Below are positions 8,370 to 52,678 of a stretch of 64,000 nucleotides of DNA, in pieces; the stretch's first letter is position 1, and every line of letters begins with the position of its first letter. The position numbers and the translations under genes are program-made. Where the stretch lies: NCBI GenBank assembly GCA_003864495.1, contig PEDN01001356.1:496001-560000 (forward strand), written 5' to 3'. This stretch comes from Nemopilema nomurai. Its lineage: Eukaryota; Cnidaria; Scyphozoa; Rhizostomeae; Rhizostomatidae. Below the pieces are notes generated by a model. It saw nothing but the letters and a program-made list of their open reading frames with translations. It made no database searches and was not told the origin of the DNA.

Positions 8370-8423
8370 TATCTATTTCTCATATGCGTAGAATCAAGGC
8401 ACACACTTCTTGTTTTGTTGCAG

Positions 8424-9142
8424 AGGAGTCAACACGGGTTGCTGGTGGAGGTAAGCACTGACTTAAGTTCTACATGGATTTCAACTTTTGTAGTGTATCA
8501 ATGAAACCTGTTTTGTTTTGAAATGATCTTAGAATTAACAAATACTTTTTGTTCTGTTGCAGAGGAGTCAACGTCGCTGGTTGCTGGTGGAGGTAAGCAC
8601 TGACTTAAGTTTAACATGGATTTTATCTTCTCTTGTGTATCAATAAAATCTGCTTTGTTTTGAAATGATCTTAGAACTAAGAAATGCTTCTTGTTCTGTT
8701 ACAGAAAGAAAGAACCAAAAGTAGCGAGGAGAGGTAACGCTTAGTAGATGTGCAGTATATTTCTACTATTGGTTGTATATAGAACCAATCTTCGATGTTT
8801 TAAAAGATCTTTAGAGTAACACACACTTCTTGTTCTGTTGCAGAGGAGTCAACGTCGCAGGTTGTTCCAGAAGGCAAGCGCTGACTTATGTTTAACATGG
8901 ATTTTATCTTCTGTTTGTATCAATGAAATCTGTTTTGTTTTTGCCCTAACTTCAGATTGACCCTTGATAAAAGTGTGCATTTTTCCATTGCAGGTGTTTC
9001 GTATGTTAGATATGGCGTTTGTGTGGCAGTTGGAGTGCCTCATTATGATCGGCGTGTATTGCATGGTCATGACATACCTCGTGACCATGTCTGCGTGTGG
9101 ATACTTGCAGTATTGGTAACATCAATAGACGAGCGGAACTAA
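8424..9142 (+). other. small-exon cluster, unit 1 (repeated in all eight units)
   Basis: Exon-like pieces: a 8424-8450 (27 nt), b 8563-8592 (30 nt), c 8705-8733 (29 nt), d 8844-8873 (30 nt) and e from 8994 to the stop at 9142. Each has a pyrimidine-rich ...gttgcag or gttacag acceptor and a gtaagc, gtaacg or gcaagc donor. Starts of a-d are 139-142 bp apart and the introns are alike, so they are exon-intron duplications. In phase 1, a reads EESTRVAGG, b EESTSLVAGG, d EESTSQVVPE and e GVSYVRYGVCV... to a stop; c hits an in-frame TAG. A 15-nt piece at the end of part B (13003-13017, EQAR) is also phase 1 and would precede exon a of the next unit. Terminal-exon stops in units 2-8 are at 13995, 18868, 23738, 28604, 33476, 38349 and 49463. 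No protein family is recognised; expression is unknown. Confidence 0.55.
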
Positions 9143-10706
9143 TTGGGCAACTTCAACAGTCATGTGGTTGCGTTTCTGTTTGGCCTATTTCCATCCACAA
9201 CTGGGTATATATACTTCCCAGCGTAGAATTTTTGGTCTATGTTCTGACATTTTATTCTCTGAAGAGTATCAGACGAAAAAGCTTCAGTACACTCAAAAGT
9301 CTGCATTCTTCAAAGCCCTTTTCAATCTTTTTCGTAACACCTTTTTGTAAAATTTGCTATGCTGGGCAATTCTGATCTCTAATAAGCATTTCTTTGTAGT
9401 TTATTAACGTTGCCTCAAAACGAAACACGATTGTTTCGTCGTAGAGTGTTTATTAATTAGATACTTTTGGTTAATACAACTTTTGTAGTTTCTTCATTAT
9501 ATAGAGCCGGACGCATTGAAAATTGTATATTGTAAATGCTTCCTTTTTGTACTCCTAATGCTTTCGCAATTATTATCAATAATAGCTTCTCCACTCGTTT
9601 AAGTATTTGCGCTGCATTTGAGACGTATGAATGAAAACTACTCGAATATTCCAATTATGGAACATTTCAAAACAGTATCATGATTTGCAGTGTTTTTATC
9701 TCCATCGTCAACCTAATTTTTAGAGTGAGCAAAATGTTGAGAGCAGAGTTTATCGCCTAGTAACTTGATAACGATGTATTTGAAAAATGAGTTCAGTGAA
9801 TGCTGTTTTGGATTGAACATATGTGACCTTATCTTCCACTCTAAACAATTGGATTCCTGTTTAGATTCCAGTTTTTATGTAAAATCAACTACGTTCTTCT
9901 TTTACAGCAACAGTTTAGCATTTAATCTATAATACTATATAGAAATATTTTGTTTTTCCATCTATTCTCTTAATTCATACCCTGGTTACAACGTACTTTG
10001 GAAACAACATACTGACACCACTGGTCCCTTAAAGTACGCTTTAACAGAGTTATACTGCATATGGAACTGAAGGTATTCGAATCCAGTAGTCAATGGGAAA
10101 CCAAAGTCTGAAACACCCGATTATACTAAAATGTAATGTAGGAATTTATGTCCAAGTTGCTGGATTCTTCCATCCAATCAAGCTGGATTAGATTTGACTT
10201 TTAGGTCTTATAGGATGTTCAAGATCATGTGTCATCATCATGTTTTACATTGCACATCCACCCAATGCTAGGTCTTCTTTTTGATCCAAAAACTTTATGC
10301 AAAGATTCTTCAACATTTTCAATAGTTTACGGGGAATAATCTGGTCCGTCCTAGCGAATGAACTTACAAACTTCTTATTTACCACGATACTTAGAAATAT
10401 TTAGCTACCGAAGTGTTTCTTTCAATTGCAAAATACATGTATGTCCCTCTCATTGCTCACCTTTTACAAGTGTCCGCTAAAATCTCGTCAGAAATTTTTT
10501 TACAGCAAATCCTCAAATTGCCCTTTACTGCCTCATTCTGCAAGCATACTCATTCTGTAATCTTCACATTGCTAACCCAGTGTATAACAAAACAAATGTG
10601 GCCAAACAGAATACACCTTTCCCGAATTCCATTAGCCTCGTATCCCAATCACCTGGAATCGAGGACAGGCTTGACAAAATTTGTTTGTTTGGTCGTAGCG
10701 GAAATC

Positions 10707-11228
10707 ATGGATGTCGATAATACTTCTGCGGCCAAGTTTCCTCATAAAAACGTCGAAAAAGTTGCAGAATCTCAGGTAGAATCTAATGTAAATATCGTTT
10801 GGGGGAAAAGCTTGAAGGAAATGCCACTTTTCTCCATCAAGGAGATAGAGATCCATAGAAAATCTAGTGGTAAAGGCAGCGCAATTATCAAAACCTTGGA
10901 CCATGGTAGAAAATTCAAAGAGATAAGGTATCTGTCGGCTGATAGTGTTTTCACCACTGTTTCTGAAAACCACTTTAATGTCAAAGCGAAATGTAAGGCT
11001 AGCATGAAAAAAGAAATTCGTAGAGTTTGTGCTTTCTACAGTTGTGCTTTCTACAAAACACCGTTTCCAACAAGGGAAAGCGGTGCGCTCAACTTCTCAA
11101 AGAAGCCAAATGAGACCTTGCAGAAGAGGATTATATCCAAAAGAGTAAGCCTTAGAGTTAATTATGCCATGTATTTCTTTTTATATGATTTATCTTTAGT
11201 TTTTCAGTTAAAAACAGATTATCAATAA
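10707..11228 (+). pseudogene. truncated SWIM/YqaJ gene start, unit 1
   Basis: The ATG at 10707 (A at -3, G at +4) opens the same first 107 codons as the intact gene at 51029 (MDVDNTSAAKF ... KKEIRRV). At 11027 the sequence leaves the gene and runs through 66 unrelated codons of part B to a stop at 11226-11228, giving a 173-residue chimeric frame. The cysteines of the SWIM finger and the whole YqaJ nuclease are missing, so nuclease activity is excluded. The 11042-11144 part of the tail may be an exon. Lys variant as in the intact gene. Confidence 0.8.
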
Positions 11229-13224
11229 GATATTTGTGAAAAAAAATTTGAATTGTACCTTAACTTTTCTTTGTCTACCTGTGAATTGTTTATTTTCCAA
11301 GCTTTATACTAAGGACAATATGGAAAAAATTCATGGAAAAAACAAAACGTTCAAGGAAGGGAATTAGAATAAGAATAATTTGTAAGACTCCCATTTGGAG
11401 TAGTTTTCATCATGTTGTGCAAATTTCTTAGACGTTATACTAGCAGATCGTTTTGTGAGCAGTTTTCACTTTCAAGATTTTCTAGTTTCTGATCTAACCG
11501 TTTTTAGATAAACGCGTTGCACCAATGGCAGAGCACATGCTATTTTTTGTTTGCCAAGAGACACAAGAACGGTTTTTCGGTGGACACACTGTGTACACCA
11601 GGTTTTGGCCAAAGTTTTATGGGTGTCGAGCCAACTGGTAAAGGCGTTTTGGCCTTATTTCTGAAGGATTTCAAGGGTATGCAACTTTTAAGAAATAGTC
11701 GTTTCCTTACTGATACTTTGAAAGCTGTTTTATTACCTAGGCGATTTCGCTGTGACAGTTAGCTTGCATTGCACTTTTTCCGTACAGTACGTTTTTTCAT
11801 GAAGCAAAATTTTTTATCATAGAGCGTAATGCCTACTTAATTTAAAGCAGTTTAAAAGAACTGTGATTGAGAAAAATTCGTATTGTAGTTATAGGAGGAG
11901 TAGTCACGAGTTTTTTGGTAAGAGTAGGAGCGTAGGCTCTGATGAAATTTATTATGGAAAATTGATAGAACTGTGTTTTTTTTGCGTTCACTCTGCGATT
12001 TGATTAAAGCAGTTTCCGGATCAGTTCAAGTCAATACAGTTATACGTAGAAAATTCGTATTGAAGTTATTCTGTTTAAAATTTAAAGCATGGTGCTCTAC
12101 AATCAATCGCAGAGCAGACCAGAAAGGTAGTTACTTGTTATTGACTTACTCTAAAACGACACACAGCTATTTGGTTTGTAGAGCAGGTCTTATAAAGCGT
12201 GAAATACAGACGAGCAACTTAAAACTGTGAACGCAGTAAGCAAAGGACCACAGTAATCTCCAACACATTGTCTCTTCCTAATCTTTTTACCTGATGAAGA
12301 TTTATGTTCGAATTGTCGTTCTTTCATTCGTGTACCAAGTCGTTTTTTAATTGAATTGAATTCTGGTAATAACGCGCACAACACTTGGAACTACGTTGAT
12401 TGTCATGTTGGTATAAATTTTTAATGAATCTCTCAAATGGTGTTGTTATCGCACTAACAACTTCTTTGCGACTCTCCTTCACCTTTACCACTTCACTAAG
12501 CCATTTACTGGTATATAAGTTTTGAAATCAATACAGAATACCAAAAAGTTATTATTTTGTACTTTTTCCCTTTATTTATGGAAAGATTTATGTTCGCTAC
12601 TTGTTTACTATTTGTTTAATACTTGTTTAAGGAGAGGAAAATGAGTTAGATGTGGATGAGGATATTGTTGAGAGCGCCGAAAATGTTTGACATGAAAGCG
12701 TTTGACATTTATAGGGAACAAGGGATATGGTCTTTATTTGACTAAACATTATTCGTACATAGTACAAGCTTGTTCTTTGTCCATTTCAATCGTAATCCTT
12801 TCTCAAAAAAATAGCTGTGACTCAGTTTAAGACACGGACGGCTCTCAGAACCCTCTTTGACGTTGTTAAAAGCAAACTTGCTGGACTTTAAGTTTTCTAT
12901 TTTCGGTTCTAGTTTTCATGTTCAAAGTATTTTCAACTACTTTTCAAAACTGCCAATTGAAAAACAGCTTTGTTTCTGGAAAGTGACTACCACTTTTTCC
13001 AGGAGAGCAGGCTCGGGGTAAGTTTCTAATGAGGAACAAAAACATTCAAGTGACGATTTGTGCTTATAAATGTTTGTTTTTGAAAAAGTAATTTTTCAAT
13101 TAATCTTCTCTTTACTGAAACTGGACAGGATATTTTCTTTGTTGCCAGTTCTGTCACCTCGATAATAACAAAACATAAAATGCAAAATACCAAGTAGATT
13201 TTCTTTTTTTTCAAGAAGCTGATG
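11028..13224 (+). other. part B of unit 1, exon-like remnants
   Basis: About 2.2 kb present in units 1-7 and absent after unit 8. Exon-like pieces on the plus strand are 11042-11144 (ctacag|TTG ... AAAAGA|gtaagc, reading CAFYKTPFPTRESGALNF onward), an acidic stretch from 12632 (reading EENELDVDEDIVESAEN in phase 1) and the 15-nt piece 13003-13017 with strong splice borders. On the minus strand, about 12500 to 12320 reads protein-like (KESRKEVVSAITTPFERF), then stops and continues in another frame. Everything else is short open frames. It may be decayed parts of neighbouring genes carried into the amplified unit. No family is identified. Confidence 0.4.
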
Positions 13225-16200
13225 TCTATTTCTCATATGCGTAGAATCAAGGCACACACTTCTTGTTTTGTTGCAGAGGAGTCAACACGGGTTGCTGGTG
13301 GAGGTAAGCACTGACTTAAGTTCTACATGGATTTCAACTTTTGTAGTGTATCAATGAAACCTGTTTTGTTTTGAAATGATCTTAGAATTAACAAATACTT
13401 TTTGTTCTGTTGCAGAGGAGTCAACGTCGCTGGTTGCTGGTGGAGGTAAGCACTGACTTAAGTTTAACATGGATTTTATCTTCTGTTGTGTATCAATAAA
13501 ATCTGCTTTGTTTTGAAATGATCTTAGAACTAAGAAATGCTTCTTGTTCTGTTACAGAAAGAAAGAACCAAAAGTAGCGAGGAGAGGTAACGCTTAGTAG
13601 ATGTGCAGTATATTTCTACTATTGGTTGTATATAGAACCAATCTTCGATGTTTTAAAAGATCTTTAGAGTAACACACACTTCTTGTTCTGTTGCAGAGGA
13701 GTCAACGTCGCAGGTTGTTCCAGAAGGCAAGCGCTGACTTATGTTTAACATGGATTTTATCTTCTGTTTGTATCCATGAAATCTGTTTTGTTTTTGCCCT
13801 AACTTCAGATTGACCCTTGATAAAAGTGTGCATTTTTCCATTGCAGGTGTTTCGTATGTTAGATATGGCGTTTGTGTGGCAGTTGGAGTGCCTCATTATG
13901 ATCGGCGTGTATTGCATGGTCATGACATACCTCGTGACCATGTCTGCGTGTGGATACTTGCAGTATTGGTAACATCAATAGACGAGCGGAACTAATTGGG
14001 CAACTTCAACAGTCATGTGGTTAGCGTTTCTGTTTGGCCTATTTCCATCCACAACTGGGTATATATACTTCCCAGCGTAGAATTTTTGGTCTATGTTCTG
14101 ACATTTTATTCTCTGAAGAGTATCAGACGAAAAAGCTTCAGTACACTCAAAAGTCTGCATTCTTCAAAGCCCTTTTCAATCTTTTTCGTAACACCTTTTT
14201 GTAAAATTTGCTATGCTGGGCAATTCTGATCTCTAATAAGCATTTCTTTGTAGTTTATTAACGTTGCCTCAAAACGAAACACGATTGTTTCGTCGTAGAG
14301 TGTTTATTAATTAGATACTTTTGGTTAATACAACTTTTGTAGTTTCTTCATTATATAGAGCCGGACGCATTGAAAATTGTATATTGTAAATGCTTCCTTT
14401 TTGTACTCCTAATGCTTTCGCAATTATTATCAATAATAGCTTCTCCACTCGTTTAAGTATTTGCGCTGCATTTGAGACGTATGAATGAAAACTACTCGAA
14501 TATTCCAATTATGGAACATTTCAAAACAGTATCATGATTTGCAGTGTTTTTATCTCCATCGTCAACCTAATTTTTAGAGTGAGCAAAATGTTGAGAGCAG
14601 AGTTTATCGCCTAGTAACTTGATAACGATGTATTTGAAAAATGAGTTCAGTGAATGCTGTTTTGGATTGAACATATGTGACCTTATCTTCCACTCTAAAC
14701 AATTGGATTCCTGTTTAGATTCCAGTTTTTATGTAAATATCAACTACGTTCTTCTTTTACAGCAACAGTTTAGCATTTAATCTATAATACTATATAGAAA
14801 TATTTTGTTTTTCCATCTATTCTCTTAATTCATACCCTGGTTACAACGTACTTTGGAAACAACATACTGACACCACTGGTCCCTTAAAGTACGCTTTAAC
14901 AGAGTTATACTGCATATGGAACTGAAGGTATTCGAATCCAGTAGTCAATGGGAAACCAAAGTCTGAAACACCCGATTATACTAAAATGTAATGTAGGAAT
15001 TTATGTCCAAGTTGCTGGATTCTTCCATCCAATCAAGCTGGATTAGATTTGACTTTTAGGTCTTATAGGATGTTCAAGATCATGTGTCATCATCATGTTT
15101 TACATTGCACATCCACCCAATGCTAGGTCTTCTTTTTGATCCAAAAACTTTATGCAAAGATTCTTCAACATTTTCAATAGTTTACGGGGAATAATCTGGT
15201 CCGTCCTAGCGAATGAACTTACAAACTTCTTATTTACCACGATACTTAGAAATATTTAGCTACCGAAGTGTTTCTTTCAATTGCAAAATACATGTATGTC
15301 CCTCTCATTGCTCACCTTTTACAAGTGTCCGCTAAAATCTCGTCAGAAATTTTTTTACAGCAAATCCTCAAATTGCCCTTTACTGCCTCATTCTGCAAGC
15401 ATACTCATTCTGTAATCTTCACATTGCTAACCCAGTGTATAACAAAACAAATGTGGCCAAACAGAATACACCTTTCCCGAATTCCATTAGCCTCGTATCC
15501 CAATCACCTGGAATCGAGGACAGGCTTGACAAAATTTGTTTGTTTGGTCGTAGCGGAAATCATGGATGTCGATAATACTTCTGCGGCCAAGTTTCCTCAT
15601 AAAAACGTCGAAAAAGTTGCAGAATCTCAGGTAGAATCTAATGTAAATATCGTTTGGGGGAAAAGCTTGAAGGAAATGCCACTTTTCTCCATCAAGGAGA
15701 TAGAGATCCATAGAAAATCTAGTGGTAAAGGCAGCGCAATTATCAAAACCTTGGACCATGGTAGAAAATTCAAAGAGATAAGGTATCTGTCGGCTGATAG
15801 TGTTTTCACCACTGTTTCTGAAAACCACTTTAATGTCAAAGCGAAATGTAGGGCTAGCATGAAAAAAGAAATTCGTAGAGTTTGTGCTTTCTACAGTTGT
15901 GCTTTCTACAAAACACCGTTTCCAACAAGGGAAAGCGGTGCGCTCAACTTCTCAAAGAAGCCAAATGAGACCTTGCAGAAGAGGATTATATCCAAAAGAG
16001 TAAGCCTTAGAGTTAATTATGCCATGTATTTCTTTTTATATGATTTATCTTTAGTTTTTCAGTTAAAAACAGATTATCAATAAGATATTTGTGAAAAAAA
16101 ATTTGAATTGTACCTTAACTTTTCCGTTTGTCTACCTGTGAATTGTTTATTTTCCAAGCTTTATACTAAGGACAATATGGAAAAAATTCATGGAAAAAAC

Positions 16201-18096
16201 AAAACGTTCAAGGAAGGGAATTAGAATAAGAATAATTTGTAAGACTCCCATTTGGAGTAGTTTTCATCATGTTGTGCAAATTTCTTAGACGTTATACTAG
16301 CAGATCGTTTTGTGAGCAGTTTTCACTTTCAAGATTTTCTAGTTTCTGATCTAACCGTTTTTAGATAAACGCGTTGCACCAATGGCAGAGCACATGCTAT
16401 TTTTTTGTTTGCCAAGAGACACAAGAACGGTTTTTCGGTGGACACACTGTGTACACCAGGTTTTGGCCAAAGTTTTATGGGTGTCGAGCCAACAAAACAT
16501 TCGCCATCTGGTAAAGGCGTTTTGGCCTTATTTCTGAAGGATTTCAAGGGTATGCAACTTTTAAGAAATAGTCGTTTCCTTACTGATACTTTGAAAGCTG
16601 TTTTATTACCTAGGCGATTTCGCTGTGACAGTTAGCTTGCATTGCACTTTTTCCGTACAGTACGTTTTTTCATGAAGCAAAATTTTTTATCATAGAGCGT
16701 AATGCCTACTTAATTTAAAGCAGTTTAAAAGAACTGTGATTGAGAAAAATTCGTATTGTAGTTATAGGAGGAGTAGTCACGAGTTTTTTGGTAAGAGTAG
16801 GAGCGTAGGCTCTGATGAAATTTATTATGGAAAATTGATAGAACTGTGTTTTTTTGCGTTCACTCTGCGATTTGATTAAAGCAGTTTCCGGATCAGTTCA
16901 AGTCAATACAGTTATACGTAGAAAATTCGTATTGAAGTTATTCTGTTTAAAATTTAAAGCATGGTGCTCTACAATCAATCGCAGAGCAGACCAGAAAGGT
17001 AGTTACTTGTTATTGACTTACTCTAAAACGACACACAGCTATTTGGTTTGTAGAGCAGGTCTTATAAAGCGTGAAATACAGACGAGCAACTTAAAACTGT
17101 GAACGCAGTAAGCAAAGGACCACAGTAATCTCCAACACATTGTCTCTTCCTAATCTTTTTACCTGATGAAGATTTATGTTCGAATTGTCGTTCTTTCATT
17201 CGTGTACCAAGTCGTTTTTTAATTGAATTGAATTCTGGTAATAACGCGCACAACACTTGGAACTACGTTGATTGTCATGTTGGTATAAATTTTTAATGAA
17301 TCTCTCAAATGGTGTTGTTATCGCACTAACAACTTCTTTGCGACTCTCCTTCACCTTTACCACTTCACTAAGCCATTTACTGGTATATAAGTTTTGAAAT
17401 CAATACAGAATACCAAAAAGTTATTATTTTGTACTTTTTCCCTTTATTTATGGAAAGATTTATGTTCGCTACTTGTTTACTATTTGTTTAATACTTGTTT
17501 AAGGAGAGGAAAATGAGTTAGATGTGGATGAGGATATTGTTGAGAGCGCCGAAAATGTTTGACATGAAAGCGTTTGACATTTATAGGGAACAAGGGATAT
17601 GGTCTTTATTTGACTAAACATTTATTCGTACATAGTACAAGCTTGTTCTTTGTCCATTTCAATCGTAATCCTTTCTCAAAAAAATAGCTGTGACTCAGTT
17701 TAAGACACGGACGGCTCTCAGAACCCTCTTTGACGTTGTTAAAGCAAACTTGCTGGACTTTAAGTTTTCTATTTTCGGTTCTAGTTTTCATGTTCAAAGT
17801 ATTTTCAACTACTTTTCAAAACTGCCAATTGAAAAACAGCTTTGTTTCTGGAAAGTGACTACCACTTTTTCCAGGAGAGCAGGCTCGGGGTAAGTTTCTA
17901 ATGAGGAACAAAAACATTCAAGTGACGATTTGTGCTTATAAATGTTTGTTTTTGAAAAAGTAATTTTTCAATTAATCTTCTCTTTACTGAAACTGGACAG
18001 GATATTTTCTTTGTTGCCAGTTCTGTCACCTCGATAATAACAAAACATAAAATGCAAAATACCAAGTAGATTTTCTTTTTTTTCAAGAAGCTGATG
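13225..18096 (+). repeat. tandem unit 2 (4872 bp)
   Basis: Same content as the other full units. It differs by one extra base (gtggttagcg near 14020), which breaks the open frame that follows the last small exon in other units, and by a missing A near 17742. It carries the G variant (Arg codon) of the truncated SWIM/YqaJ start. Confidence 0.92.
15562..16083 (+). pseudogene. truncated SWIM/YqaJ gene start, unit 2
   Basis: Second copy of the 107-codon gene start fused to part B. One residue differs from unit 1 (Arg for Lys in the KCRASM stretch). Confidence 0.8.
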
Positions 18097-21000
18097 TCTA
18101 TTTCTCATATGCGTAGAATCAAGGCACACACTTCTTGTTTTGTTGCAGAGGAGTCAACACGGGTTGCTGGTGGAGGTAAGCACTGACTTAAGTTCTACAT
18201 GGATTTCAACTTTTGTAGTGTATCAATGAAACCTGTTTTGTTTTGAAATGATCTTAGAATTAACAAATACTTTTTGTTCTGTTGCAGAGGAGTCAACGTC
18301 GCTGGTTGCTGGTGGAGGTAAGCACTGACTTAAGTTTAACATGGATTTTATCTTCTGTTGTGTATCAATAAAATCTGCTTTGTTTTGAAATGATCTTAGA
18401 ACTAAGAAATGCTTCTTGTTCTGTTACAGAAAGAAAGAACCAAAAGTAGCGAGGAGAGGTAACGCTTAGTAGATGTGCAGTATATTTCTACTATTGGTTG
18501 TATATAGAACCAATCTTCGATGTTTTAAAAGATCTTTAGAGTAAACACACACTTCTTGTTCTGTTGCAGAGGAGTCAACGTCGCAGGTTGTTCCAGAAGG
18601 CAAGCGCTGACTTATGTTTAACATGGATTTTATCTTCTGTTTGTATCCATGAAATCTGTTTTGTTTTTGCCCTAACTTCAGATTGACCCTTGATAAAAGT
18701 GTGCATTTTTCCATTGCAGGTGTTTCGTATGTTAGATATGGCGTTTGTGTGGCAGTTGGAGTGCCTCATTATGATCGGCGTGTATTGCATGGTCATGACA
18801 TACCTCGTGACCATGTCTGCGTGTGGATACTTGCAGTATTGGTAACATCAATAGACGAGCGGAACTAATTGGGCAACTTCAACAGTCATGTGGTTGCGTT
18901 TCTGTTTGGCCTATTTCCATCCACAACTGGGTATATATACTTCCCAGCGTAGAATTTTTGGTCTATGTTCTGACATTTTATTCTCTGAAGAGTATCAGAC
19001 GAAAAAGCTTCAGTACACTCAAAAGTCTGCATTCTTCAAAGCCCTTTTCAATCTTTTTCGTAACACCTTTTTGTAAAATTTGCTATGCTGGGCAATTCTG
19101 ATCTCTAATAAGCATTTCTTTGTAGTTTATTAACGTTGCCTCAAAACGAAACACGATTGTTTCGTCGTAGAGTGTTTATTAATTAGATACTTTTGGTTAA
19201 TACAACTTTTGTAGTTTCTTCATTATATAGAGCCGGACGCATTGAAAATTGTATATTGTAAATGCTTCCTTTTTGTACTCCTAATGCTTTCGCAATTATT
19301 ATCAATAATAGCTTCTCCACTCGTTTAAGTATTTGCGCTGCATTTGAGACGTATGAATGAAAACTACTCGAATATTCCAATTATGGAACATTTCAAAACA
19401 GTATCATGATTTGCAGTGTTTTTATCTCCATCGTCAACCTAATTTTTAGAGTGAGCAAAATGTTGAGAGCAGAGTTTATCGCCTAGTAACTTGATAACGA
19501 TGTATTTGAAAAATGAGTTCAGTGAATGCTGTTTTGGATTGAACATATGTGACCTTATCTTCCACTCTAAACAATTGGATTCCTGTTTAGATTCCAGTTT
19601 TTATGTAAATATCAACTACGTTCTTCTTTTACAGCAACAGTTTAGCATTTAATCTATAATACTATATAGAAATATTTTGTTTTTCCATCTATTCTCTTAA
19701 TTCATACCCTGGTTACAACGTACTTTGGAAACAACATACTGACACCACTGGTCCCTTAAAGTACGCTTTAACAGAGTTATACTGCATATGGAACTGAAGG
19801 TATTCGAATCCAGTAGTCAATGGGAAACCAAAGTCTGAAACACCCGATTATACTAAAATGTAATGTAGGAATTTATGTCCAAGTTGCTGGATTCTTCCAT
19901 CCAATCAAGCTGGATTAGATTTGACTTTTAGGTCTTATAGGATGTTCAAGATCATGTGTCATCATCATGTTTTACATTGCACATCCACCCAATGCTAGGT
20001 CTTCTTTTTGATCCAAAAACTTTATGCAAAGATTCTTCAACATTTTCAATAGTTTACGGGGAATAATCTGGTCCGTCCTAGCGAATGAACTTACAAACTT
20101 CTTATTTACCACGATACTTAGAAATATTTAGCTACCGAAGTGTTTCTTTCAATTGCAAAATACATGTATGTCCCTCTCATTGCTCACCTTTTACAAGTGT
20201 CCGCTAAAATCTCGTCAGAAATTTTTTTACAGCAAATCCTCAAATTGCCCTTTACTGCCTCATTCTGCAAGCATACTCATTCTGTAATCTTCACATTGCT
20301 AACCCAGTGTATAACAAAACAAATGTGGCCAAACAGAATACACCTTTCCCGAATTCCATTAGCCTCGTATCCCAATCACCTGGAATCGAGGACAGGCTTG
20401 ACAAAATTTGTTTGTTTGGTCGTAGCGGAAATCATGGATGTCGATAATACTTCTGCGGCCAAGTTTCCTCATAAAAACGTCGAAAAAGTTGCAGAATCTC
20501 AGGTAGAATCTAATGTAAATATCGTTTGGGGGAAAAGCTTGAAGGAAATGCCACTTTTCTCCATCAAGGAGATAGAGATCCATAGAAAATCTAGTGGTAA
20601 AGGCAGCGCAATTATCAAAACCTTGGACCATGGTAGAAAATTCAAAGAGATAAGGTATCTGTCGGCTGATAGTGTTTTCACCACTGTTTCTGAAAACCAC
20701 TTTAATGTCAAAGCGAAATGTAGGGCTAGCATGAAAAAAGAAATTCGTAGAGTTTGTGCTTTCTACAGTTGTGCTTTCTACAAAACACCGTTTCCAACAA
20801 GGGAAAGCGGTGCGCTCAACTTCTCAAAGAAGCCAAATGAGACCTTGCAGAAGAGGATTATATCCAAAAGAGTAAGCCTTAGAGTTAATTATGCCATGTA
20901 TTTCTTTTTATATGATTTATCTTTAGTTTTTCAGTTAAAAACAGATTATCAATAAGATATTTGTGAAAAAAAATTTGAATTGTACCTTAACTTTTCCGTT

Positions 21001-39684: not shown

Positions 39685-39686
39685 TC

Positions 39687-42103: not shown

Positions 42104-43710
42104 CCTCCGAAGAAAATCAGCAGCTCGAAACCCTGTTAGCTCAATATGAAGATATTTTTGCTAAATCTAGTCTAGATTTAGGCAATACAACAATCATTCA
42201 GCACCAAATTGATACGGGTGATGCCTTGCCTATTAAACAGCAACCCTATCGTGTCTCCCAGTCTCAAAAAGCGTCAATTGAAAGTCACATCAAGGACATG
42301 CTACATCAAGGTATCATTGAAGTTTCTTCCAGTCCCTGGAGTTCCCCCGTGGTGCTTGTCAAGAAGAAAGATGGTGGTACTCGCTTTTGCATAGATTATC
42401 GCCGCCTTAACGCAGTTACCCGTAAGGACAGTTATCCGCTGCCTCGAATAGACGATGCTTTAGATTCTCTCGCTGGATCAAAATATTTTTCCACCTTAGA
42501 TCTTCAGTCAGGGTATCATCAAGTCACTATGCATCCAGATTCCAAAGAAAAAACTGCTTTTATTTCACACGCTGGGTTGTATCATTTTAATGTACTCAGT
42601 TTCGGATTAACCAATGCGCCTCCACAGTTTCAAAGGCTGATGTCTCGCGTTCTTCATGGTCTCGAATGGAAGGTGTGCCTCGTATACATCGATGACGTCA
42701 TCATTTACTCTTCCAGTTTTGAAGAACATTTATCTCGCTTGCAGCTTGTTTTCGATCGTTTGCGTGCTGCTAATCTCAAGCTGAAACCTTCAAAATGTCA
42801 TTTTGCTTGTGATGCTGTTAATTATCTTGGTTTTATTGTTTCATCAGAGGGTATCGCGCCAGACCCTTCCAAATTAGACGCTGTACGGTCGTTTCCGACA
42901 CCACGTACCGTTAAAGATGTCCGCAGTTTCCTCGGCTTATGCAATTATTATCGTCGTTTTGTTAAAGACTTTGCACAGATCGCCTCGCCTCTTAATCGTT
43001 TAACGAGAAAAGATGTTCGTTTCTCGTGGGATTCTGATTGCGACCACGCTTTTTCTGAACTGAAAAATCGTTTATGTTCGCCGCCGATTCTCGCTTATCC
43101 CAATTTTGAGTTGCCATTCCATCTCTATACTGATGCCAGTCAGTACAGTCTTGGTTATGTTCTGGGTCAAGTCGTTGATGGCAGAGAAGTTGTTCTTGCC
43201 TATGGCGGTCGCGAGCTTAGCGATACGGAGACGCGGTATAGCACCACTGAACGAGAAGCTTTAGCCGTTGTAGATGGTATTAAACGCTATCAGCCTTACC
43301 TCACTGGTCAATCATTTCTCGTCCATACTGATCATGGCAGTTTGTCATGGTTGATGAAAGTTAAAGATCCTACAGGTCGACTCGCTCGTTGGGCATTGCA
43401 GCTCCAGCAGTATGATTTCCAAATCATTCATCGCTCTGGTTCTTCTAACGGTAATGCAGATGCTCTTTCCCGCCGCTCTTATTCCAAGCCTGCCCCCGCG
43501 TTATCATCTGTTAATATGGTTGCTGTTACCGAAATAGCCACGTCTGTTGCAGCTCTCGATCATCCTTGCCCACCACCTGAAACTTTGTACAAACTTCAAC
43601 GGGAAGATTCCAATCTCATAGATATTATTCGTTATCTCGAGTCCAGCGATTTGCCATCCGATGATAAAGCGCGCGTTCCTTGCTCTTGTCTATCGATTCG
43701 TTCTTCTTAA
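42085..43710 (+). CDS. pol: reverse transcriptase and RNase H part of Pol
   Basis: Copies element RNA into DNA. Reverse transcriptase motifs in order: FCIDYRRLN, STLDLQSGYHQ, SFGLTNAPPQFQRLM and the catalytic YIDDVIIYS near residues 200-208. The RNase H core begins with LYTDASQYSLGYVLG, followed by STTEREALAVV and HTDHGSLSWLM, and ends near NADALSRR. The open frame begins in a non-ATG codon and continues an upstream Pol frame, so it is a segment of the polyprotein, not a separate gene. Its end (from about 43670) again departs from the expected protein by one base. Confidence 0.93.
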   Translation: MPSPNLTSEENQQLETLLAQYEDIFAKSSLDLGNTTIIQHQIDTGDALPIKQQPYRVSQSQKASIESHIKDMLHQGIIEVSSSPWSSPVVLVKKKDGGTRFCIDYRRLNAVTRKDSYPLPRIDDALDSLAGSKYFSTLDLQSGYHQVTMHPDSKEKTAFISHAGLYHFNVLSFGLTNAPPQFQRLMSRVLHGLEWKVCLVYIDDVIIYSSSFEEHLSRLQLVFDRLRAANLKLKPSKCHFACDAVNYLGFIVSSEGIAPDPSKLDAVRSFPTPRTVKDVRSFLGLCNYYRRFVKDFAQIASPLNRLTRKDVRFSWDSDCDHAFSELKNRLCSPPILAYPNFELPFHLYTDASQYSLGYVLGQVVDGREVVLAYGGRELSDTETRYSTTEREALAVVDGIKRYQPYLTGQSFLVHTDHGSLSWLMKVKDPTGRLARWALQLQQYDFQIIHRSGSSNGNADALSRRSYSKPAPALSSVNMVAVTEIATSVAALDHPCPPPETLYKLQREDSNLIDIIRYLESSDLPSDDKARVPCSCLSIRSS

Positions 43711-44840
43711 ATGAACACGGTATCCTTTGCCATCTCTGGAGTCCCGGTAAACGTCGTGTTCAACAATTATGCGTTCAAGTCGTCATTCCAGCGTCCTTAC
43801 GCCATGAACTTCTTGTTGCCTGTCATGACCACTGCACAGCAAGCCACCTCGGTATTACCAAAACATACGACAAGATACGTACCCGCTATTATTTGGCGAA
43901 CATGTTTAAGGACATAGAACACTGGTGTAATTCATGTGTTGACTGTTCTATGAAGAAGATTCCTCGTGGACGTCGTCGAGCTCCATTGTTGCCAATTCCA
44001 GTTGAAGGTGCTTTTGATAGAATTGCCATGGATATTCTCGGTCCTTTTCCGGAAACTCACGATGGAAATCGGTATATTATCGTCTTCTCCGACTATTATA
44101 CGCGATGGCCCGAAGCCTTTGCCTTGCCTTCTACCGAAGCTCCACGTGTCGCCCAAATTCTCATTGATGAAATTCTCGCTCGCCACGGTGCTCCACGTGC
44201 CTTGCTCTCTGATCGCGGGCCTAACTTTCTAGCGTCCATCGTTAAGGAAGTGTGCAAGATTATGAACACCCGTCGTCAGCTAACAACGGCCTATCACCCT
44301 CAAACCGATGGTCTTGTTGAGCGATTTAATGCCACTTTAGCGGAAGGCCTATCTATGTACGTCAGCGCTAACCAGAAGGATTGGGACAAGCATATTCCCA
44401 TGGTCTTGTTTGCCTATCGCGTTTCTCCTAATGCCACCACCGGAGAGTCTCCGTTCTATCTCCTGTACGGACGAGAGCCACGTTTGCCAATCGACGCTGC
44501 GCTGATTTTACCGGATTCTAAATTATCGTCGTCCGTTGCCAAACTTCGCGCTGAAATTGTCCACAACTTGGAAAACGCGCAATCTATCATTAAGTCCAAT
44601 ACGCAACTTGCACAGCAGAAGATGAAAGCCTACTACGATTTGAAAGCGACTCCTGTTCCCTACGATGTTGGTTCGCGAGTTTGGGTTTATACGCCTAAGA
44701 GCGAAAAGGTCTTTCGAAGAAATTACAGCACAATTATCATGGTCCGTATCGTATCGTCGCCAAGCTCTCACCAGTGCACTTCAAACTACGTACCCTTGAT
44801 AATCGCCCGGTGTCTGTTCCCGTACATGCCAATCGTTTAA
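43680..44840 (+). CDS. pol: integrase part of Pol
   Basis: Inserts element DNA into the genome. A zinc-binding HHCC region comes first ([17 protein letters not shown] ... CNSCVDC). The catalytic core has its three acids at [22 protein letters not shown] and [13 protein letters not shown]. The frame is -1 relative to the RT segment. Near 44703-44710 (gcgaaaagg) the correct protein moves another frame back, probably by loss of an A in the run; the reading after that in this frame to the stop at 44840 is not integrase. Confidence 0.92.
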
Positions 44841-45123
44841 AGCCTTTTTATGATCCTGCTGATCGCCCTATTGACCCGCCCGCCGAAGACCTTCCCTCCC
44901 AGATCTCATCGATTCCGATTTGCCTCCGGACAGTTTTCAGCCCACTGATGCGTCGTTGCCGCCACCGAATCGTTCTGACCCGCCTGTTCCCTCTGTCTCG
45001 GATGAACCTCCGATTACACGACCTGAGGACACCCACCCTCCGCAAATCATTCGTGACGCCCCGGATCTGCTCAATCGTCAAGCCCGGAGGCTTGCTCTCA
45101 AAGGGGGGAGCTATGTTGTATAG
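44709..45123 (+). CDS. pol: integrase C-terminal tail of Pol, with one more frame change
   Basis: From about 44709 the -1 frame reads the GLSKKL ... HGPYRIV pattern of Gypsy integrase C-termini, then a proline-rich tail ([16 protein letters not shown]). Near 44905-44915 the frame changes once more and the protein continues as [17 protein letters not shown] to a TAG at 45121-45123, seven bases inside the 3' LTR. No chromodomain was seen. Confidence 0.75.
45100..45110 (+). other. polypurine tract
   Basis: AAAGGGGGGAG ends three bases before the 3' LTR and is the expected primer for plus-strand DNA synthesis. Confidence 0.8.
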
Positions 45124-45527
45124 TGAGGCTCCTCCGCATAGCGTTGCATAATTACTATGCAATCGACACATGAGTTACTATTGCACCACTATTGCATCGA
45201 TTGCACCATGTAGAATTAACTGACTCTGATTGGACATTTATTTCATCATCTCTCTTTTTATTGGACATTTATTTCATCATCCTTATTTTCATTGGACATT
45301 TTGCTATTGCACCATCTATTGTTTTGTATGTATAAAAATGTAGCTTGGCTGTAGACACATATATATATACACAGATACAGAGTTTTGAAAGAAGTAGAAT
45401 TAGACGCCAGACGAGAAGTAAGACGCAAGAAAAGATTTAGCCGTGTTTCAAGGTCGTAAGTTTCTTTTAATTTACCTTTCGATTAACTCACGCAATTTAT
45501 GTTAAATCGCCAGTGTAAGATTTAACA
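45114..45527 (+). repeat. 3' LTR, 414 bp
   Basis: Same length as the 5' LTR and no difference found on reading. Followed directly by the ATAT target duplication. Confidence 0.95.
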
Positions 45528-46156
45528 ATATGGAACTGAAGGTATTCGAATCCAGTAGTCAATGGGAAACCAAAGTCTGAAACACCCGATTATACTAAAA
45601 TGTAATGTAGGAATTTATGTCCAAGTTGCTGGATTCTTCCATCCACTCAAGCTGGATTAGATTTGACTTTTAGGTCTTATAGGATGTTCAAGATCATGTG
45701 TCATCATCATGTTTTACATTGCACATCCACCCAATGCTAGGTCTTTATGCAAAGATTCTTCAACATTTTCAATAGTTTACGGGGAATAATCTGGTCCGTC
45801 CTAGCGAATGAACTTACAAACTTCTTATTTACCACGATACTTAGAAATATTTAGCTACCGAAGTGTTTCTTTCAATTGCAAAATACATGTATGTCCCTCT
45901 CATTGCTCACCTTTTACAAGTGTCCGCTAAAATCTCGTCAGAAATTTTTTTACAGCAAATCCTCAAATTGCCCTTTACTGCCTCATTCTGCAAGCATACT
46001 CATTCTGTTATCTTCACATTGCTAACCCAGTGTATAACAAAACAAATGTGGCCAAACAGAATACACCTTTCCCGAATTCCATTAGCCTCGTATCCCAATC
46101 ACCTGGAATCGAGGACAGGCTTGACAAAATTTGTTTGTTTGGTCGTAGCGGAAATC

Positions 46157-46678
46157 ATGGATGTCGATAATACTTCTGCGGCCAAGTTTCCTCATAAAAA
46201 CGTCGAAAAAGTTGCAGAATCTCAGGTAGAATCTAATGTAAATATCGTTTGGGGGAAAAGCTTGAAGGAAATGCCACTTTTCTCCATCAAGGAGATAGAG
46301 ATCCATAGAAAATCTAGTGGTAAAGGCAGCGCAATTATCAAAACCTTGGACCATGGTAGAAAATTCAAAGAGATAAGGTATCTGTCGGCTGATAGTGTTT
46401 TCACCACTGTTTCTGAAAACCACTTTAATGTCAAAGCGAAATGTAGGGCTAGCATGAAAAAAGAAATTCGTAGAGTTTGTGCTTTCTACAGTTGTGCTTT
46501 CTACAAAACACCGTTTCCAACAAGGGAAAGCGGTGCGCTCAACTTCTCAAAGAAGCCAAATGAGACCTTGCAGAAGAGGATTATATCCAAAAGAGTAAGC
46601 CTTAGAGTTAATTATGCCATGTATTTCTTTTTATATGATTTATCTTTAGTTTTTCAGTTAAAAACAGATTATCAATAA
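46157..46678 (+). pseudogene. truncated SWIM/YqaJ gene start, unit 7
   Basis: Seventh copy, same protein as unit 2. The retrotransposon inserted about 0.6 kb upstream of its ATG, so any upstream promoter of this copy is now separated by 6.3 kb. Confidence 0.8.
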
Positions 46679-48692
46679 GATATTTGTGAAAAAAAATTTG
46701 AATTGTACCTTAACTTTTCCGTTTGTCTACCTGTGAATTGTTTATTTTCCAAGCTTTATACTAAGGACAATATGGAAAAAATTCATGGAAAAAACAAAAC
46801 GTTCAAGGAAGGGAATTAGAATAAGAATAATTTGTAAGACTCCCATTTGGAGTAGTTTTCATCATGTTGTGCAAATTTCTTAGACGTTATACTAGCAGAT
46901 CGTTTTGTGAGCAGTTTTCACTTTCAAGATTTTCTAGTTTCTGATCTAACCGTTTTTAGATAAACGCGTTGCACCAATGGCAGAGCACATGCTATTTTTT
47001 TGTTTGCCAAGAGACACAAGAACGGTTTTTCGGTGGACACACTGTGTACACCAGGTTTTGGCCAAAGTTTTATGGGTGTCGAGCCAACAAAACATTCGCC
47101 ATCTGGTAAAGGCGTTTTGGCCTTATTTCTGAAGGATTTCAAGGGTATGCAACTTTTAAGAAATAGTCGTTTCCTTACTGATACTTTGAAAGCTGTTTTA
47201 TTACCTAGGCGATTTCGCTGTGACAGTTAGCTTGCATTGCACTTTTTCCGTACAGTACGTTTTTTCATGAAGCAAAATTTTTTATCATAGAGCGTAATGC
47301 CTACTTAATTTAAAGCAGTTTAAAAGAACTGTGATTGAGAAAAATTCGTATTGTAGTTATAGGAGGAGTAGTCACGAGTTTTTTGGTAAGAGTAGGAGCG
47401 TAGGCTCTGATGAAATTTATTATGGAAAATTGATAGAACTGTGTTTTTTTGCGTTCACTCTGCGATTTGATTAAAGCAGTTTCCGGATCAGTTCAAGTCA
47501 ATACAGTTATACGTAGAAAATTCGTATTGAAGTTATTCTGTTTAAAATTTAAAGCATGGTGCTCTACAATCAATCGCAGAGCAGACCAGAAAGGTAGTTA
47601 CTTGTTATTGACTTACTCTAAAACGACACACAGCTATTTGGTTTGTAGAGCAGGTCTTATAAAGCGTGAAATACAGACGAGCAACTTAAAACTGTGAACG
47701 CAGTAAGCAAAGGACCACAGTAATCTCCAACACATTGTCTCTTCCTAATCTTTTTACCTGATGAAGATTTATGTTCGAATTGTCGTTCTTTCATTCGTGT
47801 ACCAAGTCGTTTTTTAATTGAATTGAATTCTGGTAATAACGCGCACAACACTTGGAACTACGTTGATTGTCATGTTGGTATAAATTTTTAATGAATCTCT
47901 CAAATGGTGTTGTTATCGCACTAACAACTTCTTTGCGACTCTCCTTCACCTTTACCACTTCACTAAGCCATTTACTGGTATATAAGTTTTGAAATCAATA
48001 CAGAATACCAAAAAGTTATTATTTTGTACTTTTTCCCTTTATTTATGGAAAGATTTATGTTCGCTACTTGTTTACTATTTGTTTAATACTTGTTTAAGGA
48101 GAGGAAAATGAGTTAGATGTGGATGAGGATATTGTTGAGAGCGCCGAAAATGTTTGACATGAAAGCGTTTGACATTTATAGGGAACAAGGGATATGGTCT
48201 TTATTTGACTAAACATTTATTCGTACATAGTACAAGCTTGTTCTTTGTCCATTTCAATCGTAATCCTTTCTCAAAAAAATAGCTGTGACTCAGTTTAAGA
48301 CACGGACGGCTCTCAGAACCCTCTTTGACGTTGTTAAAAGCAAACTTGCTGGACTTTAAGTTTTCTATTTTCGGTTCTAGTTTTCATGTTCAAAGTATTT
48401 TCAACTACTTTTCAAAACTGCCAATTGAAAAACAGCTTTGTTTCTGGAAAGTGACTACCACTTTTTCCAGGAGAGCAGGCTCGGGGTAAGTTTCTAATGA
48501 GGAACAAAAACATTCAAGTGACGATTTGTGCTTATAAATGTTTGTTTTTGAAAAAGTAATTTTTCAATTAATCTTCTCTTTACTGAAACTGGACAGGATA
48601 TTTTCTTTGTTGCCAGTTCTGTCACCTCGATAATAACAAAACATAAAATGCAAAATACCAAGTAGATTTTCTTTTTTTTCAAGAAGCTGATG

Positions 48693-51349
48693 TCTATTTC
48701 TCATATGCGTAGAATCAAGGCACACACTTCTTGTTTTGTTGCAGAGGAGTCAACACGGGTTGCTGGTGGAGGTAAGCACTGACTTAAGTTCTACATGGAT
48801 TTCAACTTTTGTAGTGTATCAATGAAACCTGTTTTGTTTTGAAATGATCTTAGAATTAACAAATACTTTTTGTTCTGTTGCAGAGGAGTCAACGTCGCTG
48901 GTTGCTGGTGGAGGTAAGCACTGACTTAAGTTTAACATGGATTTTATCTTCTGTTGTGTATCAATAAAATCTGCTTTGTTTTGAAATGATCTTAGAACTA
49001 AGAAATGCTTCTTGTTCTGTTACAGAAAGAAAGAACCAAAAGTAGCGAGGAGAGGTAACGCTTAGTAGATGTGCAGTATATTTCTACTATTGGTTGTATA
49101 TAGAACCAATCTTCGATGTTTTAAAAGATCTTTAGAGTAACACACACTTCTTGTTCTGTTGCAGAGGAGTCAACGTCGCAGGTTGTTCCAGAAGGCAAGC
49201 GCTGACTTATGTTTAACATGGATTTTATCTTCTGTTTGTATCCATGAAATCTGTTTTGTTTTTGCCCTAACTTCAGATTGACCCTTGATAAAAGTGTGCA
49301 TTTTTCCATTGCAGGTGTTTCGTATGTTAGATATGGCGTTTGTGTGGCAGTTGGAGTGCCTCATTATGATCGGCGTGTATTGCATGGTCATGACATACCT
49401 CGTGACCATGTCTGCGTGTGGATACTTGCAGTATTGGTAACATCAATAGACGAGCGGAACTAATTGGGCAACTTCAACAGTCATGTGGTTGCGTTTCTGT
49501 TTGGCCTATTTCCATCCACAACTGGGTATATATACTTCCCAGCGTAGAATTTTTGGTCTATGTTCTGACATTTTATTCTCTGAAGAGTATCAGACGAAAA
49601 AGCTTCAGTACACTCAAAAGTCTGCATTCTTCAAAGCCCTTTTCAATCTTTTTCGTAACACCTTTTTGTAAAATTTGCTATGCTGGGCAATTCTGATCTC
49701 TAATAAGCATTTCTTTGTAGTTTATTAACGTTGCCTCAAAACGAAACACGATTGTTTCGTCGTAGAGTGTTTATTAATTAGATACTTTTGGTTAATACAA
49801 CTTTTGTAGTTTCTTCATTATATAGAGCCGGACGCATTGAAAATTGTATATTGTAAATGCTTCCTTTTTGTACTCCTAATGCTTTCGCAATTATTATCAA
49901 TAATAGCTTCTCCACTCGTTTAAGTATTTGCGCTGCATTTGAGACGTATGAATGAAAACTACTCGAATATTCCAATTATGGAACATTTCAAAACAGTATC
50001 ATGATTTGCAGTGTTTTTATCTCCATCGTCAACCTAATTTTTAGAGTGAGCAAAATGTTGAGAGCAGAGTTTATCGCCTAGTAACTTGATAACGATGTAT
50101 TTGAAAAATGAGTTCAGTGAATGCTGTTTTGGATTGAACATATGTGACCTTATCTTCCACTCTAAACAATTGGATTCCTGTTTAGATTCCAGTTTTTATG
50201 TAAATATCAACTACGTTCTTCTTTTACAGCAACAGTTTAGCATTTAATCTATAATACTATATAGAAATATTTTGTTTTTCCATCTATTCTCTTAATTCAT
50301 ACCCTGGTTACAACGTACTTTGGAAACAACATACTGACACCACTGGTCCCTTAAAGTACGCTTTAACAGAGTTATACTGCATATGGAACTGAAGGTATTC
50401 GAATCCAGTAGTCAATGGGAAACCAAAGTCTGAAACACCCGATTATACTAAAATGTAATGTAGGAATTTATGTCCAAGTTGCTGGATTCTTCCATCCAAT
50501 CAAGCTGGATTAGATTTGACTTTTAGGTCTTATAGGATGTTCAAGATCATGTGTCATCATCATGTTTTACATTGCACATCCACCCAATGCTAGGTCTTCT
50601 TTTTGATCCAAAAACTTTATGCAAAGATTCTTCAACATTTTCAATAGTTTACGGGGAATAATCTGGTCCGTCCTAGCGAATGAACTTACAAACTTCTTAT
50701 TTACCACGATACTTAGAAATATTTAGCTACCGAAGTGTTTCTTTCAATTGCAAAATACATGTATGTCCCTCTCATTGCTCACCTTTTACAAGTGTCCGCT
50801 AAAATCTCGTCAGAAATTTTTTTACAGCAAATCCTCAAATTGCCCTTTACTGCCTCATTCTGCAAGCATACTCATTCTGTAATCTTCACATTGCTAACCC
50901 AGTGTATAACAAAACAAATGTGGCCAAACAGAATACACCTTTCCCGAATTCCATTAGCCTCGTATCCCAATCACCTGGAATCGAGGACAGGCTTGACAAA
51001 ATTTGTTTGTTTGGTCGTAGCGGAAATCATGGATGTCGATAATACTTCTGCGGCCAAGTTTCCTCATAAAAACGTCGAAAAAGTTGCAGAATCTCAGGTA
51101 GAATCTAATGTAAATATCGTTTGGGGGAAAAGCTTGAAGGAAATGCCACTTTTCTCCATCAAGGAGATAGAGATCCATAGAAAATCTAGTGGTAAAGGCA
51201 GCGCAATTATCAAAACCTTGGACCATGGTAGAAAATTCAAAGAGATAAGGTATCTGTCGGCTGATAGTGTTTTCACCACTGTTTCTGAAAACCACTTTAA
51301 TGTCAAAGCGAAATGTAAGGCTAGCATGAAAAAAGAAATTCGTAGAGTT
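48693..51349 (+). repeat. tandem unit 8, part A only, continuing into the intact gene
   Basis: The match to the other units stops after cgtagagtt at 51349. Beyond it the sequence is the rest of the SWIM/YqaJ coding region instead of part B. It carries the A (Lys) variant shared only with unit 1. This is the presumptive original gene copy. Confidence 0.93.
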
Positions 51350-52678
51350 GAAGTTTCGCTGGACCGGGAAACTGGCCTTGTTGTTTCATCAAAGTGCTCT
51401 TGTCCTGCCGGAAAGAGCGGATATTGCAACCACGTTATGGCCTTACTTTTTGAATTGGCAGATTACTCGTTGAATCAATTGATAATTGTGCCAGAAGAGA
51501 TAGCGTGTACCAGTAAGACAAGACAGTGGGGAATTCCTGAAGAAAATGGTGCCACAAAAGAGCCAGTCATGACAAAAACTGTTAAAAAGTTGGGAGATAA
51601 GAGGGGAATATCATGCACAGTATATGATGCAAGATTGAACGAAAGCAAGTCTGATCTAAAGATGAGAGCATTGGACATGGAAGCAAAGCTTGCTGAGAAA
51701 GATGAAAAAATTGGTTTTGCTCACTGCATTGATTTTTCCCTGAGTGAAATGAGCAATACAAGGCTCGGTGAGTTTTTAGTTGGATCCACTTTAGCTCATC
51801 AACTAGCACCTGTGCATTCTTCAACTATTACAGTTGTTACAAATATCCCTCGCTCTGAATATTGTGAATACACAACACATTCTTATACCCCATTACCTTT
51901 AAAGATCTTACCACCAGATCATCTTGTTGTGCCAAGTGAATGGGGAACACTTACAGAGGAAGAAATTGAGTTTCTTGATGAAATACGAATTTCAGAAGCA
52001 GATTCATACCAAATAGAAAAAGACACTGTTTCGCAAAGTCAGTGCAAAAAGTGGCATGAAATTCGAATGGGGCGTTATACCTCTAGCAATGCAAGCAAAG
52101 TTTTAATTCGCAAACGGAACTTTGAAGCTTTGGCAAATCAGCTTCTAAATCCGAAGCCAGAAACAGAACTTCCACAACTGATGAAAGATGCCTTCAAGCA
52201 TGGGATAATGTATGAACCTGTGGCCAGAAAGCAGTATGATGAGTACTTAAAATATAATTTGAGGCATGATGCAGCAGTACGTGAGACTGGTATTGTTGTA
52301 CAACCCTATTTGTTCTGGCTTGCTGCTAGTCCTGACGGACTTGTCAGTGATAAAACAGAGGCTGGTACTGGTCTCTTGGAAATCAAATGTCCTAAAACCA
52401 AGAGGAAGAGTAACCCAGATGACCTGATTGCTGATGAAAGCTTTTACGTTTCATTGGTAAATGGAAAGCCAGAGCTTAAAAGAGAACATGGCTATTACAC
52501 ACAAATCCAAATGGCAATGGGACTATCTGGTGCTCTTTATTGTGACTTTATTGTATATACATTTAAAGGTTTGATAATTGTCAGAACTCCGTTTAATAAT
52601 GAATATTTTGTGAATGTGATTCAGAAACTAAACATCTTTTATAGAAAATACATGCTACCGTTATTAATTTCAAAGTAA
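51029..52678 (+). CDS. SWIM zinc-finger / YqaJ-type nuclease protein, intact
   Basis: Protein of 549 residues combining a SWIM zinc finger with a YqaJ (PD-(D/E)XK, lambda-exonuclease-like) nuclease domain. SWIM ligands are C123, C125, C133 and H135 (CSCPAGKSGYCNH). Nuclease motifs are EIRMGRYTSSNASKVL near residue 345, KHGIMYEPVARKQY near 390-405, AASPDGLV (catalytic Asp near 435), LLEIKCPK (Glu-x-Lys near 450) and HGYYTQIQMAMG near 490. I chose the ATG at 51029 (A at -3, G at +4); the longer open frame from 50735 starts with GTG and its first 98 codons look untranslated. The first 107 codons lie in the last array unit and are duplicated seven times upstream. Such genes are common in invertebrates and often transposon-associated; here a THAP/DDE transposase is convergent, 694 bp away. 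A role in DNA end processing is inferred from the fold. Confidence 0.88.
   Translation: MDVDNTSAAKFPHKNVEKVAESQVESNVNIVWGKSLKEMPLFSIKEIEIHRKSSGKGSAIIKTLDHGRKFKEIRYLSADSVFTTVSENHFNVKAKCKASMKKEIRRVEVSLDRETGLVVSSKCSCPAGKSGYCNHVMALLFELADYSLNQLIIVPEEIACTSKTRQWGIPEENGATKEPVMTKTVKKLGDKRGISCTVYDARLNESKSDLKMRALDMEAKLAEKDEKIGFAHCIDFSLSEMSNTRLGEFLVGSTLAHQLAPVHSSTITVVTNIPRSEYCEYTTHSYTPLPLKILPPDHLVVPSEWGTLTEEEIEFLDEIRISEADSYQIEKDTVSQSQCKKWHEIRMGRYTSSNASKVLIRKRNFEALANQLLNPKPETELPQLMKDAFKHGIMYEPVARKQYDEYLKYNLRHDAAVRETGIVVQPYLFWLAASPDGLVSDKTEAGTGLLEIKCPKTKRKSNPDDLIADESFYVSLVNGKPELKREHGYYTQIQMAMGLSGALYCDFIVYTFKGLIIVRTPFNNEYFVNVIQKLNIFYRKYMLPLLISK

Follow-up and report, generated by a model that had tools for sequence, protein, structure and literature searches.

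ISL2EU is a described group of transposons of the PHIS/Harbinger-like superfamily that combine a THAP-HTH-DDE transposase with a YqaJ open reading frame (ORF) and duplicate AT at their target (PMC4482050, in the excerpts used here). The same excerpts give terminal inverted repeats (TIRs) of 6–259 bp that usually, though not obligatorily, start with GG, a target context A|AT|T and, together with excerpts from a second paper, a mean length of ~4.84 kb (PMC4482050; PMC9179366). For tandem arrays and satellites that take up transposon pieces, excerpts from a review name unequal crossover and microhomology-mediated joining as routes (PMC9659126). We analyzed a 64-kb window of the Nemopilema nomurai genome (C143:496001-560000; the eukaryotic assembly comprises 212.9 Mb in 226 contigs), in which the 5′ part of a nuclease gene with SWIM and YqaJ domains recurs in a tandem array of eight units. 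Very probably, the array arose by recent tandem duplication of a repeat-prone locus, here called X, that carried a transposon fragment, followed by homologous expansion. In kind it looks like ordinary DNA duplication and not like a system of decoy genes.

The transposon in the window resembles ISL2EU in its AT duplication and in its two-ORF plan of transposase plus YqaJ, at a length of 4.26 kb. It differs in that its TIRs start with AC and not with the usual GG, its transposase frame is interrupted, and its nuclease also contains a SWIM finger; the main text of PMC4482050 does not use the word “SWIM” (0 occurrences). A further reservation is that its empty sites read G-AT-T, where A-AT-T is described. 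A first-pass annotation of this DNA knew of no described system of such form, which fails for the gene, as this matches ISL2EU in the excerpts of PMC4482050. Literature searches on similar arrays, on satellites from transposons and on ISL2EU combined with “tandem” showed no such case, and “not described” is meant here in the sense of those searches. With the arrays and satellites treated in the excerpts of PMC9659126 our locus shares a transposon piece within a locally multiplied tandem unit, but only ~9% of the unit is transposon and its eight copies lie at a single locus, not genome-wide.

Transposon and Nuclease

The following features (window coordinates) make up the transposon.

50935..55193, no strand assigned: ISL2EU-type DNA transposon, 4259 bp, delimited by TIRs, an AT duplication (50933-50934 and 55194-55195) and empty sites.
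51029..52678, plus strand: intact SWIM and YqaJ nuclease ORF of 549 codons, from Pfam, a PDB sequence match and a predicted structure.
53373..55003, minus strand: transposase with THAP and HTH_Tnp_4 (53948-55003) and DDE_Tnp_4 (53373-53924) domains (PF05485, PF13613, PF13359).

The TIRs are imperfect, ~69 bp long and 81% alike. An empty site, the uninterrupted sequence GGCCAAACAGG-AT-TGCTTAAAAT, is present in 4 of the 4 X copies that reach this position in the fetched stretches (one each on C70 and C67, two on C2); these four copies read G-AT-T, and in the window copy the left AT is preceded by A and the right AT is followed by T. We assign the transposon to the ISL2EU type by its domains, its AT duplication and, with a reservation for their AC start, its TIRs. 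The reading frame of the transposase is interrupted between the THAP/HTH piece and the DDE piece. The genome search with the transposon scored the best 40 of 951 candidates, and the resulting copy counts are lower bounds: at least one further YqaJ-bearing copy was found among 57 matches, at C45:679198-683097, 96% identical over the match and with indels in its nuclease frame relative to the window copy.

The nuclease matches YqaJ (PF09588) with an E value of 2.2e-16 and SWIM with 5.5e-4, barely past the cut-off. A sequence comparison with the PDB returned one match, the exonuclease 3syy, and the predicted structure (mean predicted local distance difference test score of 81) finds its best PDB match in lambda exonuclease (E 4.7e-8). 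Relatives of the nuclease indicate a scyphozoan jellyfish: a protein from Rhopilema esculentum shares 92% identity over 67% of the query. The ORF starts 94 bp inside the transposon (ATG at 51029, left end at 50935), and the nuclease has no need of an upstream exon. We accordingly rejected the upstream exons that the first-pass annotation had included, with the nuclease gene, in the repeated unit: the ORF lies wholly within the transposon, the DNA upstream is locus X, and ~91% of the unit consists of X, which has copies elsewhere, with a 415-bp transposon piece as a passenger. Judged from sequence, the nuclease is ORF 2 of the ISL2EU-type transposon.

The segment between the two transposon ORFs (52902-53331) matches at least 28 other places in the genome at 70–87% identity and is therefore a dispersed repeat inside the transposon.

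Organization of the Array and Its Joint

Self-comparison of the window reveals eight direct copies of ~4.87 kb each, as assembled. They are composed of an A part and a B part of X (together ~91% of the unit), the remainder being the first 415 bp of the transposon.

8372..11027, plus strand: A part of unit 1 (locus X and the first 415 bp of the transposon, 10613-11027), from sequence comparison.
11028..15882, plus strand: joint-to-joint repeat 1 (X B part, X A part, transposon 5′ piece), 4855 bp.
15883..20754, plus strand: joint-to-joint repeat 2, 4872 bp.
20755..25624, plus strand: joint-to-joint repeat 3, 4870 bp.
25625..30490, plus strand: joint-to-joint repeat 4, 4866 bp.
30491..35363, plus strand: joint-to-joint repeat 5, 4873 bp.
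35364..46477, plus strand: joint-to-joint repeat 6, 11114 bp, with a long terminal repeat (LTR) retrotransposon inside its A part (A7).
46478..51349, plus strand: joint-to-joint repeat 7, 4872 bp, continuous with the complete transposon.

The A parts begin at 8372, 13225, 18097, 22968, 27834, 32706, 37580 and 48693, with a copy-to-copy spacing of 4853–4874 bp, except for the 11113-11114 bp that result from the LTR retrotransposon within unit 7. The 64-kb window contains no N bases, and the self-comparison found no inverted copies of ≥150 bp among the units.

Sequence divergence among the units is very low. Pairs of A parts differ by 0–3 substitutions per ~2657 bp when A7 is left out and by 2–5 when it is included, and pairs among B1-B7 differ by 0–1 per ~2.2 kb. 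A2-A6 show no substitution in 10 of 10 pairs; compared with each of them, A1 has three, A8 one and the inner A7 two. B0, which lies in the native left context, is separated from B1-B7 by 11–13 substitutions. Many of the differences between units are 1-bp indels, which may be sequencing error, and several units carry marks of their own: a 15-bp deletion in B1, a 5-bp deletion in B4, substitutions specific to A1, and a 6.26-kb LTR insertion together with a 19-bp deletion in A7. The self-comparison and the substitution counts bear out the earlier claim of eight near-identical ~4.87-kb units, their near-identity supports the recent amplification it proposed, and it had correctly seen that only the last unit continues into the nuclease (unit 8 alone reaches the stop at 52678). 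Its array start at 8372 has to be moved to the left of the window, because the first B part (B0) sits at C143:486789-488999, ~9.2 kb outside, and is split from 8372 by a TCTA-flanked insertion. The true span of the array is thus ~C143:486.8-547.3 kb, including insertions. Satellite-type spread, with the monomer at many sites, was not seen among the best 40 of 951 candidates scored (weakest match E 1e-5): the only locus at which the seven joined transposon pieces turned up was this one.

The seven inner joints share an identical sequence. The transposon stops after codon 107 of the nuclease, within the ORF and 415 bp from the transposon end, and is followed by X with a short templated filler that repeats neighboring X sequence, so that a ~15-bp motif is present twice. 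In B0 and at C143:417866, X lacks the joint. The repeats are thus direct head-to-tail copies sharing one joint (7/7), as found in a tandem duplication, and the one shared scar points to one founding event. At one site in the transposon piece, units 2–7 have G, but units 1 and 8, like the C45 copy, have A, and two homopolymer sites in B1 agree with B0 against B2-B7. Both patterns are as expected from inner expansion and fit a course in which unequal exchange multiplied a single changed copy into the inner units.

Locus X and Its Relatives

The DNA of X (the unit minus the 415 bp) also occurs on C70, on C2 (twice), on C67 (in the stretch read, just the A part) and at other places on C143. It contains 142-bp repeats in which AG and GT border mini-exon-like segments of 27–30 nt, together with three longer exon-like segments. 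The 142-bp repeats lie at 8405-8941 and at the equivalent positions of each unit, and also in L020. The E-type mini-exon pattern gives 12 matches in the C70 stretch and 16 in the window array, two per unit. A 121-bp minisatellite to the right of the transposon (55285-55615) recurs in additional copies at the C67 and C70 loci of X.

For X, a 215-residue composite returned no homologue at E ≤ 0.01 among 257 candidates, and Pfam yielded no match. When the differences between X and its C70 copy are sorted by codon position (1/2/3), three comparisons lean weakly to the third position (0/2/4, 0/2/5 and 10/11/16) and three do not (3/2/2, 5/5/5 and 2/3/3). In the array, a difference in a T run, possibly an error, changes the frame of the second X segment in B2-B7 but not in B0 or B1, and the last exon-like segment is truncated. 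X appears to be a low-copy, exon-like locus with unproven coding status; with no homologue, no Pfam match and a weak, uneven third-position lean, the standing of a proven gene was not reached.

A relative of X, termed X′, forms a second array on the same contig (C143:335477-353294), with six ~2.9-kb units that are 98–99% alike and whose limits lie ~490 bp before the first exon-like segment and 334 bp past the last. Its breakpoints differ from those of the window array, and searches with the transposon query and with the inverted-repeat end motif gave no match inside it. The X′ array is probably the older of the two, judging from the only 98–99% identity of its copies. Because it was multiplied independently, with other breakpoints and with no transposon piece found, X is amplification-prone. 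Four matching pieces at 98.5–99.2% identity between C143:410-420 kb and 470-489 kb indicate that the region duplicates on several scales.

Truncated Reading Frames

Each inner unit retains the start of the nuclease, fused to X by the joint.

10707..11228, plus strand: first of seven 173-codon chimeric frames (107 nuclease codons and 66 joint/X codons), an open frame.

The other six frames start at 15562, 20434, 25304, 30170, 35043 and 46157. As the first-pass annotation had stated, the ATG and the 173-codon frame are kept, being open in 7 of 7 inner units. No Pfam domain was found in the first chimeric frame, the single one scanned. In the predicted structure, residue 107 lies inside a strand (104-112) of the SWIM sheet, and the conserved C-x-C and C-x-H residues C123, C125, C133 and H135, which we take from the SWIM motif to be zinc ligands, are located downstream of the break and lost from the truncated frames. 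The first-pass annotation had suggested that such starts could make truncated proteins, serve as alternative first exons or feed antisense or small RNAs. A folded SWIM decoy made from these frames is unlikely on this structural model, because the break splits the SWIM strand and removes the C-x-C and C-x-H residues. We infer that the seven truncated nuclease starts are passengers without function.

Insertions and Neighboring Elements

Two insertions interrupt the array.

1..8371, no strand assigned: right-hand portion of a ~15.4-kb insertion (C143:489000-504371) by which the first unit is split, with Helitron Rep-like and PIF1 helicase ORFs; target site duplication (TSD) TCTA on both sides, Pfam matches.
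39271..45527, plus strand: gypsy-type LTR retrotransposon in A7, 6257 bp, with Pfam matches to gag, reverse transcriptase, RNase H and integrase.

The ~15.4-kb insertion parts B0 from A1 only. It matches PIF1, Pif1_2B and Helitron_like_N in Pfam, with PIF1 pieces at 536-2172; its Helitron Rep-like and PIF1 helicase ORFs were located at L017:3598-5661 and at window positions 536-2172. Helitrons are not known to make a target duplication, and the 4-bp duplication of the insertion therefore suggests that it is probably a nest of elements. The LTRs of the retrotransposon (39271-39684 and 45114-45527) are 414 bp long and identical, with a TSD of ATAT; the element is fresh and later than the array. 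A DUF6589 ORF on the minus strand (L016:619-1857) is found ~14-15 kb left of the window. To the right of the array, 57194-58613 holds a degenerate second ISL2EU-like element, with a DDE_Tnp_4 ORF (57194-57730, plus strand) and a YqaJ remnant (58371-58613, minus strand).

Discussion

We propose that an ISL2EU-type transposon entered low-copy X at an AT site, on the downstream side of the exon-like part. One error-prone repair or template-switch event may then have linked a point in the nuclease ORF, after codon 107, to an upstream point in X, yielding a direct tandem duplication that comprised the 3′ part of X and the initial 415 bp of the transposon; the presumed route to this founding joint is template switching or end joining guided by microhomology. 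Unequal homologous exchange would subsequently have expanded the inner units to the eight assembled copies and kept them uniform. Several observations weigh against this history or parts of it. Unit 7 differs from A2-A6 by two substitutions and thereby exceeds unit 8, which has one, and the order of expansion is further weakened because 1-bp indels may be sequencing error. None of the chimeric frames is interrupted, each continues in frame into an exon-like X segment, and open runs of at least 66 codons exist at only 50 of the 1997 overlapping start offsets of that X stretch; given this rarity and the in-frame fusion, more than chance could be behind the fusion. Some 6 kb beyond the X′ array there is also the right end of a related transposon. 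The latter prompted us to consider whether the transposon has the array built into it, an idea we dropped, as the flank of that end differs from that in the window and the empty sites indicate a plain insertion.

The open frames bear on the possibility that the units are a young family of chimeric transcription units. Here a transposon promoter, the 94-bp leader and 107 nuclease codons would precede, in sense and in frame, the exon-like segments of X, taken as a fast-changing host locus, and yield spliced nuclease-X fusion RNAs or proteins, or RNAs acting on the intact transposon. With eight left transposon ends ahead of one right end, a working transposase could in principle also mobilize X segments of graded length. 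The 7/7 open frames, their in-frame junction with an X segment whose end is a GT donor-like site, the 27–30-nt X segments between AG and GT, the scarcity of long open runs among the overlapping X offsets (50/1997) and the weak third-position lean in several X-copy comparisons all speak for it. However, other comparisons show no such lean, X has neither a Pfam domain nor a homologue among the 257 candidates, the array copies of X carry the frame change in the second segment (B2-B7) and the truncated last segment, and the break cuts the SWIM domain, so that from the sequence we regard such a gene family as improbable. An array of this build may alternatively be regulatory, with antisense or small RNAs from the units silencing the intact transposon or X. 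In Drosophila, Su(Ste) repeats silence Stellate, and they likewise are tandem repeats that combine a gene-like piece with a transposon piece. The window array is tandem, near-identical and includes the transposon 5′ end with its inverted repeat, and the title of one paper names the conservation of small-RNA processing in jellyfish (PMC7305137). The transposon looks low copy, however, with at least the one further YqaJ-bearing copy (C45) among its matches, and there is perhaps little to silence; nor are there inverted copies of ≥150 bp among the units. Unlike in the Drosophila case, the genome sequence gives no sign of antisense transcription or of a target array. A silencing role would be slightly less probable still than a family of fusion genes.

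The number of units could also be an artefact of assembly, with fewer or more in truth: near-identical 4.87-kb units are hard for assemblers, and the many 1-bp indels are typical of long-read error. Against this, the deletions of 15 bp in B1 and 5 bp in B4, the substitutions of A1 and the LTR and 19-bp deletion of A7 distinguish individual units in a window free of N, and several separate copies therefore probably exist. We consider an artefact unlikely, if the least far-fetched of these alternatives. The presence of a transposon end in each unit and of Helitron genes in the insertion of the first unit might suggest that the array was built by a rolling-circle element or through transposon ends used in an alternative way, but the joint falls within the nuclease ORF and 415 bp away from the transposon end, the insertion with the Helitron genes stands only between B0 and A1, and the breakpoints of the X′ array are different ones. 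Amplification driven by transposition is the least probable explanation among those considered.

Read as a tandem duplication followed by homologous expansion, the locus is a young and clean case of one faulty joint within a transposon gene founding a tandem array. Its founding scar and empty sites can be read together with an LTR retrotransposon that inserted later and with a second array that formed independently from a locus of the same kind, and the array illustrates that a transposon passenger can mimic an amplified gene. If the units are transcribed, they would be a direct test case for the birth of transposon-host fusion genes through amplification.

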